From positions 1-32,883 of the forward strand of contig JAJPHX010000041.1 of the NCBI GenBank assembly GCA_021325075.1: 32,883 bases of DNA, in the 5' to 3' direction. This document shows positions 15,141 through 31,978 of the stretch, in pieces. Positions within the stretch are counted from its first letter, which is position 1. Every line of letters starts with the position of its first letter. The notes beneath the pieces were generated by a model, which was not told the origin of the DNA, searched no databases, and worked only from the letters and a program-made list of their open reading frames with translations. Both the position numbers and the translations under genes were made by a program. This stretch comes from Nitrososphaeraceae archaeon. Lineage in GTDB: Archaea; Thermoproteota; Nitrososphaeria; Nitrososphaerales; Nitrososphaeraceae.

Positions 15141-16252
15141 GCGCCCAAACTCTATCATAATTAGATATCTTGTTCAAACTTTGGATTAACTCCAAGTTCC
15201 TGCATCTCCTGAATTACCACGCATATGTTATGACAAAGTATCTTCAAAAGTACTTCATTCAGCTGTGCTACCTTATCTTTGCTTCTTATATTATCCTTGA
15301 ACTTGGACTTGATCATGTGAAATACAGTTTCACAATTAGAACGTTGGTGATAGTGTTTCATGAAATCATCTTGGTTTAACATAAAGTAGTGATACATCTT
15401 TCTCCATGCGTTTGAGCCATTTGCATTTTGTACTGCATTCTTTCTAAAGGGAATGAAGGGCGTTGCTCCTAGCATGTCAACAAATCGATAATTGGCGCGG
15501 CTAGAATATGCCTTGTCGGCAAGAACCTCTTGAATGTCAAAACTCTTGGCTGTTTTTTCAACTAATGGAGGCAAGAAGTGAACGTCATTACGATTTTCTT
15601 CTGACAACTGAACTGCTGTAATAATGCCTGTTTTCACTCCGCAGATTATGTGCGCCTTGATCCAAGTGCGATACTTTGTGTCTTTTCCATGCTTGAAATC
15701 GAAATATCTTGCAAAGCGTGATGTCGAAAATCCACTGCTATCTACGGCAAAGTTCTTTTCTACAGTCCTCAGCGGTAGGCTGCTTATTGTTATCAGATCA
15801 TCTAATATTGGCATCAACTCTGGCTTTCTCATAAAGTTGCTAATTGACACATATGTGCAGGATGTTTGGATGTAACCTTCGGCCATTGCTTTTTGCATTG
15901 AAGCCATAAAGCGGCGTAATGAAAAGCCCGTGTAGGTCCGAAGTGCTGAAGCAAAAATCATATCAGCAATAGACAAACGCGGCCGACCACGTTCATACAG
16001 CGGCTGCTCTACAGTAGCGCAAATATCTGTTAGTATTTTCATGAATGTCAATTGCTCTGAGCATTTGGCTTCATTGTAAGCCTTCCAATCTTGGGAATAT
16101 GATCGTCTTTCTTTAGCAACATATGCTGTCAATTTTGTTTGCCCCCATTTCAGCTTGGGTAATGGAATTCGCTTTTTCCTCCGCTTTTTTGATAGGGTGA
16201 GCGATCGAGTTGTCATTTGTACCACGACTTCTGTCAGCAGAGCCTATGCCCA
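15141..16252 (-). mobile_element. Insertion sequence with DDE transposase (ends uncertain)
   Basis: The transposase gene (15161-16225) fills nearly all of the space between the kinase-HD gene and the next RHH gene. A weak candidate terminal inverted repeat pairs 15141-15160 with the reverse complement of about 16232-16251, with roughly 10 of 20 positions alike including a shared CTCT core. No target-site duplication was found. The ends given are therefore approximate. Confidence 0.35.
15161..16225 (-). CDS. DDE transposase, IS4/IS5-like
   Basis: A 354-residue RNase H-fold transposase that appears complete. The N-terminus is strongly basic (KKRRKKRIPLPK). Catalytic acidic residues are placed in FAVDSSGFSTSRF (first D), VLADKAYSSRANYRF (second D) and RSNCETVFHMIKSKF (E), the YREK-like region of IS4/IS5-type enzymes. 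The N-terminal PRLSIADMIFASALRTYTGFSLR segment is the usual helical DNA-binding part of this group. It is convergent with the kinase-HD gene, only 40 bases from its stop. An apparently intact reading frame suggests recent arrival. Confidence 0.88.
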   Translation of the reverse strand: MVQMTTRSLTLSKKRRKKRIPLPKLKWGQTKLTAYVAKERRSYSQDWKAYNEAKCSEQLTFMKILTDICATVEQPLYERGRPRLSIADMIFASALRTYTGFSLRRFMASMQKAMAEGYIQTSCTYVSISNFMRKPELMPILDDLITISSLPLRTVEKNFAVDSSGFSTSRFARYFDFKHGKDTKYRTWIKAHIICGVKTGIITAVQLSEENRNDVHFLPPLVEKTAKSFDIQEVLADKAYSSRANYRFVDMLGATPFIPFRKNAVQNANGSNAWRKMYHYFMLNQDDFMKHYHQRSNCETVFHMIKSKFKDNIRSKDKVAQLNEVLLKILCHNICVVIQEMQELGVNPKFEQDI

Positions 16253-21580: not shown

Positions 21581-21599
21581 AATCTACCAGTCAGCCGGC

Positions 21600-21657
21600 G
21601 CTTACCTGATCCTGTCAAAAATACCTGCTAAGTAAGTTATTGCTACCTGATTTAAAT
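21600..21657 (+). promoter_or_regulatory. Composite promoter of the pirin gene (shared with TFB)
   Basis: Reads GCTTACCT, 15 bases, ACCTGCTAAGTAA, 3 bases, ATTGCTACC, 4 bases, TTAAAT (TATA, 21652-21657). The ATG is 28 bases from the first base of the TATA box, so the mRNA is probably leaderless. The same elements with identical spacing precede the TFB gene at 22632-22689, so a common activator or specialised TFB may read both. Confidence 0.7.
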
Positions 21658-21679
21658 AATTAACCAGCCATATCTAAGC

Positions 21680-22600
21680 ATGGTCAAAACCAAATACTCA
21701 TCCGTGAACAATATTGATTCGATAAAATCCCGCTCTGTCCTCCGCGTCGTAAACAGCGCCAAGACGATAGAGGGCGAGGGCTTTGTGGTGCACAGGTCGT
21801 TCCCGACACACTTCCTTTCCGACTTTGACCCGTTCATGCTGCTGGACGAAATGGGTCCGATGGACCTCGCTCCCGGAGAAGCCAAGGGCGCGCCGGACCA
21901 CCCGCATCGCGGCTTTGAGACGGTGACGTACCTGCTTGACGGACGGTTTGAGCACAAGGATTCTCATGGGCACTCTGGCAAGCTCGAGCCCGGGGACGTG
22001 CAGTGGATGACCGCCGGAGCCGGCGTGATACACTCGGAAATGCCGGAAAAAGAATTTGCCAAGACAGGCGGGCGGCTGCACGGCTTTCAGCTGTGGGTCA
22101 ACCTGCCAAAGAAGGACAAGATGGCAAAGCCGCGCTATCAGGACATCAAAAGTGATAGAATACCTGTCGTCAAAAGCGATGACGGTCGCGTGCAGGCCAA
22201 GGTGATTGCAGGAGAAGCTTTTGGCAAGCATGCCGTGATGGATACGCGGACTCCTATAACATACCTGCACTTTACGCTCCAGCCAGGCGGCAAGGTAGTG
22301 CGGCCAGTGCCGCAAAACCACAACGCGTTTGCGTACGTTGTCGGCGGCAAGGGACTCTTTGGAGCAGACGAAAAGCCGGCGCAGCGGGAACAGGTCGTGC
22401 TGTTTGCCAATGATGGTAACGAAATATCAATTAAAGTGCCGGACGACGCGGCATCGCCACTGGACGTGCTTTTGATAGCCGGCGTGCCCCTGAATGAGCC
22501 GGTTGCCCGCTACGGGCCGTTTGTGATGAACACCAAGGAAGAGATCTATCAGGCAATAGGGGACTATAGAAGTGGCAGGATGGGCCAGATAGACTTCTAA
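21680..22600 (+). CDS. Pirin family protein
   Basis: A 306-residue bicupin. The N-terminal cupin has the metal ligands His74, His76 (DHPHRGFETVTY), His118 and Glu120 (AGAGVIHSE), equivalent to the iron-binding set of human pirin; the C-terminal cupin (TYLHFTLQPGGKV and FAYVVGGKGLFG) lacks ligands as usual. Pirins act as iron-dependent quercetinase-type enzymes in bacteria and as transcription cofactors in eukaryotes; the archaeal role is not established. Its promoter is almost duplicated before the next gene, a transcription factor B, so a functional link with transcription is plausible. Alternative downstream starts are unlikely given the leaderless spacing. Confidence 0.93.
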   Translation: MVKTKYSSVNNIDSIKSRSVLRVVNSAKTIEGEGFVVHRSFPTHFLSDFDPFMLLDEMGPMDLAPGEAKGAPDHPHRGFETVTYLLDGRFEHKDSHGHSGKLEPGDVQWMTAGAGVIHSEMPEKEFAKTGGRLHGFQLWVNLPKKDKMAKPRYQDIKSDRIPVVKSDDGRVQAKVIAGEAFGKHAVMDTRTPITYLHFTLQPGGKVVRPVPQNHNAFAYVVGGKGLFGADEKPAQREQVVLFANDGNEISIKVPDDAASPLDVLLIAGVPLNEPVARYGPFVMNTKEEIYQAIGDYRSGRMGQIDF

Positions 22601-22636
22601 TTTTTTTAACGAGAGAAGCAGGTCAGTTCCTGCTTA
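22601..22636 (+). terminator. T-run and inverted repeat after pirin
   Basis: TTTTTTT immediately follows the pirin stop (22601-22607). A 7-bp inverted repeat AAGCAGG-N6-CCTGCTT (22616-22635) follows and touches the first promoter word of the TFB gene. The T-run probably terminates pirin transcripts; the inverted repeat may instead be an operator for TFB. Confidence 0.4.
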
Positions 22637-22689
22637 CCTAGACAGGTGTTGTTAACCTACTAAGTAACCAATTGCTACCATAGTTAAAT
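22632..22689 (+). promoter_or_regulatory. Composite promoter of the TFB gene (shared with pirin)
   Basis: GCTTACCT, 15 bases, ACCTACTAAGTAA, 3 bases, ATTGCTACC, 4 bases, TTAAAT (22684-22689), and ATG exactly 28 bases from the start of the TATA box. Every spacer length equals that of the pirin promoter while spacer bases differ, which indicates selection on the words rather than a recent copy. Confidence 0.7.
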
Positions 22690-22711
22690 GCAACTTTGCC
22701 GATAATAACGC

Positions 22712-23623
22712 ATGGCAAAATCTGCAAAGCAGTCGTTGCACAACCTGATAACCGACCCGGAGACAGGCGAGGTCATCAGCACAGACAGCGGGCAGGTTGT
22801 TGCAGACATTAATCTATCGTTAGAGCCAGAATGGCGCTCTTTTGATTCTGAAGGAGACCAGAGCAGGGCAGGAGCCCCAAGCTCGCTTGCCCGGCACGAC
22901 ATGGGGCTGTCTACAATGATAGGCAGGACCGACAGGGACGCCGGCGGCAATTCTATCGCTACCGACATGCGCTACCGGATGGAGAGGTTAAAGATGTGGG
23001 ACAGCAGGAGCAGGATGCATTCGCCGTCAGAGCGAAACTTCCAGCAGGCGTTCAGTCAGCTTGTCAAGGTAAAGGACAGGATGGGTCTGCCAGACTCGGT
23101 CATGGAAAAAGCCGCCTACGTCTACAGAAAGGCGCAGGAAAGGGGGCTTATCCGGGGCAGGACAATAGGCTCTGTCCTTGCCGCTTCAATATACATCGCA
23201 AGCAGGCAGATGGGCGTATTGAGAACGCTAGACGACATTTCAGCAGACAGCGGAATCAAGCCAAAGGAAGTCGGGAGATCATACAGGCTCTTGGTGTCAA
23301 GCCTTGACCTGAAGGTGCCAGTCATAGACTCCAACAAGTACGTGGCCAAGGTTGCAAACAGCACAAACTTGAGCGAGCGCACAAAGAGAAAGGCGCTAGA
23401 GATAATGGCAGAGGCGCAGAGCAGGGGAGTCTCTGTCGGCAAGGACCCGATGGGGATTGCGGCATCCGCACTCTATCTTGCGACCCGGTTCACAAGGGAG
23501 CTCAGGACGCAGGCCGACATCGCCAAGGCTGCGGGCGTGACAGAGGTTACCGTAAGGAACAGGTCAAAAGAGCTGAAGGTGCGCCTGCGAATCAAGGTTC
23601 CAGACATCGAAATCCCTGCATGA
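22712..23623 (+). CDS. tfb: Transcription initiation factor B, variant without zinc-ribbon cysteines
   Basis: A 303-residue TFB/TFIIB homologue that recruits RNA polymerase to TBP-bound promoters. Two cyclin repeats are clear at about residues 108-195 (IGSVLAASIYIASRQMG) and 205-295 (GIAASALYLATRF), the second with the BRE-contacting HTH (TQADIAKAAGVTEVTVRNRSKEL). The B-reader/linker EPEWRSFDSEGD and ARHDMGLSTMIG are conserved. The N-terminal ribbon position is kept (ITDPETGEVISTDSGQVV) but all zinc ligands are gone; the whole protein contains no Cys. A stop codon just upstream of the ATG excludes a missed ribbon. It is likely an alternative TFB. Confidence 0.93.
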   Translation: MAKSAKQSLHNLITDPETGEVISTDSGQVVADINLSLEPEWRSFDSEGDQSRAGAPSSLARHDMGLSTMIGRTDRDAGGNSIATDMRYRMERLKMWDSRSRMHSPSERNFQQAFSQLVKVKDRMGLPDSVMEKAAYVYRKAQERGLIRGRTIGSVLAASIYIASRQMGVLRTLDDISADSGIKPKEVGRSYRLLVSSLDLKVPVIDSNKYVAKVANSTNLSERTKRKALEIMAEAQSRGVSVGKDPMGIAASALYLATRFTRELRTQADIAKAAGVTEVTVRNRSKELKVRLRIKVPDIEIPA

Positions 23624-30258: not shown

Positions 30259-30519
30259 TTTCTATTTTTCACTTTTGTGTTGTTTTTGTAGTTCTAAACT
30301 ACCGCAAAAGCAACGGAAGACATGAAAAGTTTTTTCCGTGCAGTTTTTCATGCACACTTGACAAATCCGCCGTAATACCTTTGTCTGCTCTTTGATAGAC
30401 CGGACGGAGATATAAGGTATACGGTGTGCATGTTTACGAAACTGCGGTAAGGTCAGACTTACTGACTTGGTCCTAAATCACTACCGTCTTTATTAGAGAG
30501 GCGTGGCATTATTGCTACT
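30259..30519. promoter_or_regulatory. Divergent regulatory spacer between helicase and VOC dioxygenase genes
   Basis: A 261-base gap without genes. It holds three inverted repeats: GTAGTT-CTA-AACTAC (30288-30302), CATGAAAA-N16-TTTTCATG (30321-30352) and GTCAG-ACTTA-CTGAC (30452-30466). A TATA-like CTTTATTAG lies about 30 bases before the dioxygenase ATG. The first repeat is 30 bases from the helicase start, so it could be a 5'-leader element of that gene. Confidence 0.4.
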
Positions 30520-31395
30520 ATGAGCAGGATCGAAGGGCAGTTGTTCAGGATGAACCCGTCCATGAAAATAGGAGACGTCAGTCTGAACGTGTCGGATCTT
30601 TCGCGCTCGCTCGACTTTTACCAGAATATTCTGGGTTTCAAAATAATTGGAAAACCGTCAGGCGAGAAAGCATTGCTTTCCGCAGCCGGTGCCTCTTCGT
30701 ATCTAGTCGAATTGCTGCAGGTAAAGGAGAACCCTGAACCAAAAAGAGCAGGACTATACCACTTTGCGATATTGCTTCCAGAGAGAAAGTACTTGGCAGA
30801 TATGCTCCAAAATCTTCGCGAAAACCGCGATCAGGTGCATTTCGACGGCCTTGCAGACCATCTCGTGTCAGAAGCAATCTACCTACGCGATCCAGACTTT
30901 AACGGAGTCGAGATTTACAGAGACAGACCAGCGTCAGAATGGAGCTGGAGCGGCAGCCGGATAGAAATGGCAACGCTTCCCCTGGACACAAGTGACCTGC
31001 TCAGGGAATCAACTGATCAAGGCTGGAAGAAAATGCCGATTAAGACCACGATAGGCCATGTCCACCTACATGTTCGCAATGTAGCCAAGGCAATAAAGTT
31101 CTACAATGAAATTCTTGGGTTGAACTTGACTGCGACTATTCCAAGCGCTGCCTTTTTTGCAGCAGGCAAGTATCATCACCATATAGCAGCCAATACTTGG
31201 CTTGGAACCGATATTTCACCTGCTTCATCGGAAAGCGTCGGGCTGAATCATTTCAGCATCGTGATGCCAAATAAAGAGGAGTTTCAAAGACTGGCAGATC
31301 AATTGTCAAAGTCAGGAATGGCATCGACCATGTCCGAAAGATCAGGTTTTGTTTACGATATGGACGGAATCAAGATACAAGTGCAACACGGCTAA
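30520..31395 (+). CDS. Two-domain VOC-family protein, catechol-2,3-dioxygenase-like
   Basis: A 291-residue protein with two vicinal-oxygen-chelate modules: IGDVSLNVSDLSRSLDFYQNILGFK at residues ~17-41 and IGHVHLHVRNVAKAIKFYNEILGLN at ~178-202. AGLYHFAILLPER, FNGVEIYRDRP and VGLNHFSIVMPN are typical of CatE/glyoxalase-type proteins. Candidate metal ligands are His of VHLHV, His of LNHFSI and a Glu/Gln near the C-terminus (GIKIQVQHG); in the final strand the usual Glu appears replaced. Substrate unknown; ring-cleaving dioxygenase or detoxification enzyme are both possible. ATGs at 30520 and 30550 are in frame. Confidence 0.87.
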   Translation: MSRIEGQLFRMNPSMKIGDVSLNVSDLSRSLDFYQNILGFKIIGKPSGEKALLSAAGASSYLVELLQVKENPEPKRAGLYHFAILLPERKYLADMLQNLRENRDQVHFDGLADHLVSEAIYLRDPDFNGVEIYRDRPASEWSWSGSRIEMATLPLDTSDLLRESTDQGWKKMPIKTTIGHVHLHVRNVAKAIKFYNEILGLNLTATIPSAAFFAAGKYHHHIAANTWLGTDISPASSESVGLNHFSIVMPNKEEFQRLADQLSKSGMASTMSERSGFVYDMDGIKIQVQHG

Positions 31396-31666: not shown

Positions 31667-31978
31667 ATGCCTGACCCGTACGCCAAGCGCCTGCTGTGGT
31701 ATCTTTTTGCCGGCTCGCGGGGCGGCGAGAACCGGATCAGGATAATCGACCTACTAAAAGATCACCCGTACAACATGAACCAGCTTGCCGAGGCGCTCGG
31801 GGTAGACTACAAGGCCGCGCAGCACCACATCGGCGTGCTTGAAAAGAACAACATGGTCAGCAAGGCAGGCGAAAAATACGGCGTGCTTTACTTCATCTCG
31901 AACTATCTCGAAGCCAACATCGAGGCGTTCAACGAGGTCAGGGCGACGATAGAGAAACGTAGATCTGGAAAAAAGTAA
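31667..31978 (+). CDS. ArsR-like winged-helix transcriptional regulator
   Basis: A 103-residue DNA-binding protein. NRIRIIDLLKDHPYNMNQLAEALGVDYKAAQHHIGVLEKNNMV is a clear winged helix with recognition helix DYKAAQHHIGVLEK; the wing is GEKYGVLYFIS. The C-terminal helix (ANIEAFNEVRATIEKRR) probably dimerises. No Cys metal site is present, so it is not a classical metal sensor. It directly precedes a small membrane protein (27-base gap), which is probably its functional partner or target. Confidence 0.88.
   Translation: MPDPYAKRLLWYLFAGSRGGENRIRIIDLLKDHPYNMNQLAEALGVDYKAAQHHIGVLEKNNMVSKAGEKYGVLYFISNYLEANIEAFNEVRATIEKRRSGKK

Follow-up and report, generated by a model that had tools for sequence, protein, structure and literature searches.

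The HxlR protein of Bacillus subtilis, a formaldehyde-responsive activator, recognizes sites arranged in tandem, upstream of the operon that it controls. Other members of the HxlR/DUF24 family, such as YodB and CatR of B. subtilis and QsrR of Staphylococcus aureus, carry a sensor cysteine near the N-terminus and repress bacterial promoters. The targets of YodB/QsrR-type regulators include nitroreductases, quinone/flavin reductases, an FMN-linked monooxygenase and VOC-type dioxygenases (PMC6798810, PMC8063818). In archaea, regulators from other protein families are known to exert opposite effects depending on the location of their site. Thus, OxsR of Haloferax volcanii activates from a motif located upstream of the BRE/TATA region and represses from a downstream motif (PMC9426492). 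In the same way, TrmBL1 and Tgr of Thermococcales are dual regulators that recognize one motif and whose effect is set by its position relative to BRE/TATA (PMC4158304).

The window analysed here (the whole stretch of 32,883 nucleotides) carries a pirin gene and a gene for the general transcription factor TFB whose promoters match. Judging from sequence comparisons, each of them is a copy of one control switch that is widespread in ammonia-oxidizing archaea. The composite operator that they share is probably bound by a cysteine-bearing HxlR protein that would activate a redox/detoxification regulon including a TFB and repress its own gene. The likely regulator belongs to the same family as YodB, CatR and QsrR, but its sites are those of archaeal promoters, upstream of the TATA box, and, unlike in the YodB/QsrR regulons, pirin is the main target and a general transcription factor is found among the targets. 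It differs from HxlR of B. subtilis, whose targets are involved in formaldehyde fixation and which works with the bacterial transcription machinery. OxsR, also archaeal, resembles it in having a single winged helix and one key cysteine, but belongs to the TrmB family, recognizes a CG-rich motif, controls hypochlorite/thiol targets and is restricted to haloarchaea. TrmBL1 and Tgr differ by their sugar signals, their protein family and their motif.

Paired promoters and anatomy of the operator

The original prediction described four words with equal spacing in both promoters, GCTTACCT-N15-ACCTRCTAAGTAA-N3-ATTGCTACC-N4-TTAAAT. This composite is indeed found with 0 mismatches at 21600-21657 and 22632-22689, and the dinucleotide-shuffled window gave 0 matches, even when 3 mismatches were allowed. 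The TATA boxes start at 21652 (pirin) and 22684 (TFB) and the ATGs are located at 21680 and 22712, which agrees with the 28 bp announced for both genes. The features of the two promoters, and those of a third, weaker copy found in the window, are as follows:

21590-21605, + strand: distal inverted repeat GTCAGCCGGCGCTTAC of the pirin promoter (sequence; profile dyad at -30.5)
21609-21624, + strand: middle repeat ATCCTGTCAAAAATAC of the pirin promoter, weak/degenerate here (profile dyad at -11.5)
21623-21647, + strand: conserved core ACCTGCTAAGTAAGTTATTGCTACC of the pirin promoter, containing the proximal repeat GTAAGTTATTGCTAC at 21632-21646 (pattern and profile)
21652-21658, + strand: pirin TATA box, TTAAATA, starting 28 bp from the ATG
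21680-22600, + strand: pirin A gene (PF02678 and PF05726)
22622-22637, + strand: distal inverted repeat GTCAGTTCCTGCTTAC of the TFB promoter (sequence, profile)
22641-22656, + strand: middle repeat GACAGGTGTTGTTAAC of the TFB promoter (sequence, profile)
22655-22679, + strand: conserved core ACCTACTAAGTAACCAATTGCTACC of the TFB promoter, containing the proximal repeat GTAACCAATTGCTAC at 22664-22678 (pattern and profile)
22684-22689, + strand: TFB TATA box, TTAAAT, starting 28 bp from the ATG
22712-23623, + strand: TFB gene with TFIIB repeats and without zinc-ribbon cysteines (PF00382; no CxxC before the core domain)
30426-30497 (approximately), + strand: third, weaker composite promoter GGTAAGGTCAGACTTACTGACTTGGTCCTAAATCACTACCGTCTTTATTA (profile E 0.006)
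30520-31395, + strand: two-domain VOC glyoxalase/dioxygenase-type gene, predicted regulon member (PF00903)

Conservation extends beyond the four words. The conserved unit spans about 70 bp, comprises three imperfect GTnA...TnAC inverted repeats whose centres are about 19 and 22.5 bp apart, and ends 4-5 bp before the TATA box, its position upstream of TATA being fixed. The word GCTTACCT is the right half only of an inverted repeat, which reads GTCAGCCGGCGCTTAC at the pirin gene and GTCAGTTCCTGCTTAC at the TFB gene. A profile built from 140 sites (effective number 66) has centres of dyad symmetry near -30.5, -11.5, 0 and +11, relative to the C of CTAAG, and direct-repeat spacings of 19 and 23 bp. 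The simplest reading of this profile would be three GTnA...TnAC inverted repeats separated by about two helical turns. The strongest single dyad, ACTTACTAAGT, is centred at 0. Furthermore, the TTA of a TATA-like box is located at exactly N4 in 25 of 25 promoter sites, which were retrieved with a pattern that does not include the TATA box.

The third copy of the window scores 30.1 vs a maximum of 7.0 in 200 shuffled windows. An ArsR-type HTH gene (31667-31978), downstream of the VOC gene, carries no operator copy. Elsewhere in the window, an ORF on the minus strand (15161-16225) resembles, by eye only, an insertion-sequence transposase.

Distribution of the operator and predicted regulon

A scan of named genomes with the TFB gave two relatives only, and such relatives assign the window to Nitrososphaera. 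A 35-bp core was searched in the draft genome to which the window belongs (1.58 Mb, 86% complete), and a 20-bp pattern without TATA was searched in 400 genomes of the order. The genome scan, which had been proposed as a check, gave three occurrences of the core and 0 with the reversed pattern. The third occurrence (3 mismatches) precedes the gene of a quercetinase-type pirin, pirin B, which is followed by an NADPH-dependent FMN reductase gene (contig C163). Among the 400 genomes, the words of the 20-bp pattern were found before pirin genes in two families, that of the window and f9, which is probably Nitrosopumilaceae as far as its name can be deduced, and also before second-type pirins, TFBs and one DsbA-like gene. 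At 1 mismatch, the raw order-wide counts are not significant alone. The reversed-pattern controls also give scattered matches, so the argument is carried by the position before TATA and by the type of gene rather than by raw counts. Five matches without TATA box and gene start (L010, L011, L031, L032 and L035) were discarded as chance.

A sequence profile derived from the sites of the 20-bp pattern matches 53 of the 70 genomes of the family (E up to 0.01) and 82 of the 400 genomes of the order (E up to 0.001). Among about 146 distinct sites, 65 are followed by pirins, 19 by LLM (luciferase-like) flavin oxidoreductases and 10 by TFBs. The other downstream genes encode a small protein without Pfam match (5 sites), nitroreductases (4), luciferase-domain proteins (4), Rieske proteins (3), NmrA-like proteins (3), and HxlR, FMN reductase, SDR and PNPOx-like proteins (2 each); DsbA, DoxX, LUD and others were found once. 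A regulon of the YodB/QsrR type would be expected to consist of quinone/nitro/flavin reductases and ring-cleaving dioxygenases. Genes for FMN reductase, nitroreductase, LLM monooxygenase, NmrA, DoxX and VOC-type proteins are found here, but pirins dominate.

The pirin A protein of the window contains the Pirin and Pirin_C cupin domains (PF02678, E 1e-35; PF05726, E 1.6e-28). Order-wide, 40 of the 57 homologues examined have a site directly upstream, as have all six TFB orthologues of the genus (6/6); the words are thus retained in orthologous promoters. In the genome of the window, the predicted members are pirin A, the TFB, the VOC gene at 30520, pirin B with the FMN reductase (C163), an LLM oxidoreductase (C154) and an HxlR gene (C189). 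This provides a candidate regulator, an operator and a list of targets that can be tested in cultures.

Searches in the open literature combining pirin, TFB or regulon with ammonia-oxidizing archaea returned no mapped regulon of this kind, nor its regulator. A 2025 biofilm study reports the induction of a TFB and of a nitroreductase in biofilms; pirin and HxlR do not occur in its text. In genus g6, a protein of about 123-134 aa with a Cys-rich head and without Pfam match is repeatedly encoded after the operator (L115, L142, L152, L183 and L185), and the operator core is slightly different (ATGACTACCATATTTAATTAT).

The candidate HxlR regulator and its proposed mode of action

The likely binder is an HxlR/DUF24 winged-helix protein with an invariant N-terminal cysteine, as suggested by its domain and by its linkage to the sites. 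The candidate of the genome of the window (contig C189) matches PF01638 with 87.6 bits vs a cut-off of 20.8. Profile comparison gives HxlR, YodB, YybR and QsrR as its nearest solved relatives, HxlR of B. subtilis (PDB 7bze, 7bzd, 7bzg) being the closest. Its Cys14 is invariant in 10 diverse archaeal sequences. The sensor cysteine is Cys6 in YodB and Cys5 in QsrR; Cys14 would correspond to Cys6 of YodB, according to its location before the HTH domain.

An HxlR gene is present within about 2.3 kb of about 45 distinct sites. It is found divergent upstream, next in the pirin operon, next after the LLM gene, convergent downstream or directly under the site. In the window itself, there is no adjacent HxlR gene, the candidate being located on another contig of the same genome. 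In Nitrososphaera, an orthologue occurs in 15 of 18 genomes (68-79% identity over the 68-residue query), and it lies about 5-10 kb from the pirin B site in the six checked genomes that have both on one contig. HxlR/site co-occurrence (both, site only, HxlR only, neither) amounts to 45/5/6/14 genomes in the family and 19/13/4/294 in the rest of the order. Among the 57 genomes with pirin A, 36 have both, 4 the site only, 2 HxlR only and 15 neither (Fisher p 2e-8, such p-values being optimistic since they ignore relatedness between genomes). Where genomes have diverged, some sites may have escaped the profile.

The promoter of hxlR shows another arrangement: a TATA-like box is followed by the operator (e.g., CAAGTMAGTAATTACTACTAGGT) and then by the ATG. 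In 15 of 15 orthologues, the operator match that ranks first at the locus, on one strand or the other, is the one in this promoter, and the operator was not found at the seven HxlR paralogue loci examined. In the genome of the window, this operator reads TTATTAGCAAGTCCATTATTACTACCAGGTATG and is located downstream of TATA. At L262 (C189, 1209-2890), the hxlR gene and an ORF resembling a proteasome beta subunit are convergent, and the coding sequence neighbouring hxlR recurs beside its orthologues in the genus.

The operator is therefore upstream of BRE/TATA at target genes and downstream of TATA at hxlR, a layout that matches the positional one of TrmBL1 and OxsR. Because of this archaeal positional rule (upstream activates, downstream represses), HxlR is expected to activate its targets and to repress its own gene. 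From sequence, we infer the binding, the direction of control and the signal, the latter from the resemblance of the targets to bacterial quinone-stress regulons. HxlR dimers would bind the GTnA...TnAC repeats upstream of TATA. Exposure of the sensor cysteine to an oxidant or a quinone-like electrophile could lead HxlR to aid the assembly of TBP, TFB and RNA polymerase, and thus to induce the genes of pirins, of flavin and NAD(P)H oxidoreductases and of a dedicated TFB, as well as the VOC dioxygenase-type gene. At hxlR, where the site is downstream of TATA, the bound protein would cause self-repression. The targets seem to fit electrophile stress, but they fit general redox or nitrosative stress too.

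The original prediction held that both promoters contain, 5' of BRE/TATA, a dedicated activator site through which the pirin and an alternative TFB are coordinated. The present data support this reading: the site is conserved in orthologous promoters, and its activating nature is deduced from position. Three points had been missed: the site marks a wider regulon, the words belong to three inverted repeats, and the likely binder is an identifiable HxlR.

HxlR could also be a repressor at all sites, the oxidation or alkylation of its cysteine freeing the BRE-proximal repeat and leading to derepression in the manner of YodB and QsrR, two solved relatives whose repressor activity is lost in the presence of quinones. 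Since only 4 bp separate the proximal repeat from TATA, this repeat overlaps BRE, which makes repression possible. This mode of action nevertheless seems rather doubtful, as three repeats extending in fixed phase to about 60 bp upstream of TATA better fit an activator, and sites over or downstream of the start, the usual position for archaeal repressors, were found only at hxlR itself.

It is very improbable that a different, unlinked transcription factor binds the sites while HxlR controls its neighbours through other sequences. A few genomes do have sites without a close HxlR: four genomes with pirin A, two of them incomplete, and seven genomes of family f10 in which the HxlR is a more distant one, adjacent to the site in two. 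But the operator is also found in the hxlR promoter, at another position relative to TATA, across the genus. Furthermore, HxlR and site are jointly absent from genus g5 and from some f9 genomes that keep pirin A, although relatives of these genomes have both.

The words could also be an extended BRE or core promoter read by the alternative TFB, which would regulate itself and directly control the pirin. TFB genes with a site occur in two families, and the proximal word abuts the TATA box. As the main account, this very improbable explanation is largely ruled out by the operator of hxlR, whose location downstream of TATA is impossible for a BRE, and by the many genomes in which a site precedes a pirin and no TFB is under a site; the unit also extends about 60 bp upstream of TATA, past the contacts of TFB. 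Lastly, a recent local duplication of promoters without regulatory meaning, which the adjacency of the two genes in the window might evoke, can be dismissed, since the spacer bases differ, as had been noticed from the start, and the unit, spaced identically, is met again ahead of non-homologous genes as well as in other families.

The TFB genes under the operator

In the reading retained here, activation by HxlR, the TFB would be an output of the switch that may feed back on the promoters of the regulon. The TFB of the window matches PF00382 (E 3.2e-36) in two stretches that correspond to the TFIIB core repeats. Of the 24 further TFB genes that were compared, none carries the site in its own promoter. 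The pirin and TFB genes are also adjacent in two other genomes (G056 and G161).

CxxC zinc-ribbon cysteines were looked for in the TFB of the window and in its five orthologues of the genus, and none was found. L033, which is the regulon TFB in genus g3, has them, like most of the paralogues shown. In the N-terminal region, which was compared between the TFB of the window (22712-22850) and the orthologues L233-L237, one finds for example LITDPETGEVISTDSG where other TFBs read ITDPESGEVVCRSCG. Since these TFBs have no zinc-ribbon cysteines, they are not expected to dock RNA polymerase in the usual mode.

In a quick tree, the TFBs of the genus group with L033, and the site-bearing TFBs of family f10 form a separate, well-supported branch. 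These two branches suggest that TFBs entered the regulon twice, or that one was swapped for another; the f10 TFBs look like an apparent independent recruitment. It can be tentatively proposed that a redox-sensing HxlR switch makes a ribbon-less TFB that reshapes initiation under stress, as a specificity factor or as a competitor, and that two TFB lineages were recruited. If this is true, the cell would make, by its own switch, a specificity factor for the regulon or a stress-time competitor of the housekeeping TFB. With the predicted regulon, a specific stress switch would control one of the numerous additional TFBs of ammonia-oxidizing archaea, so that the purpose of multiple TFBs becomes directly testable.

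The TFBs of family f10 (L009, L168 and L177) form a separate lineage with an intact zinc ribbon, under the same operator. Another ribbon-less TFB of the genus, which has no operator (L242, genome G086), sits beside the regulon TFBs and has a long branch.
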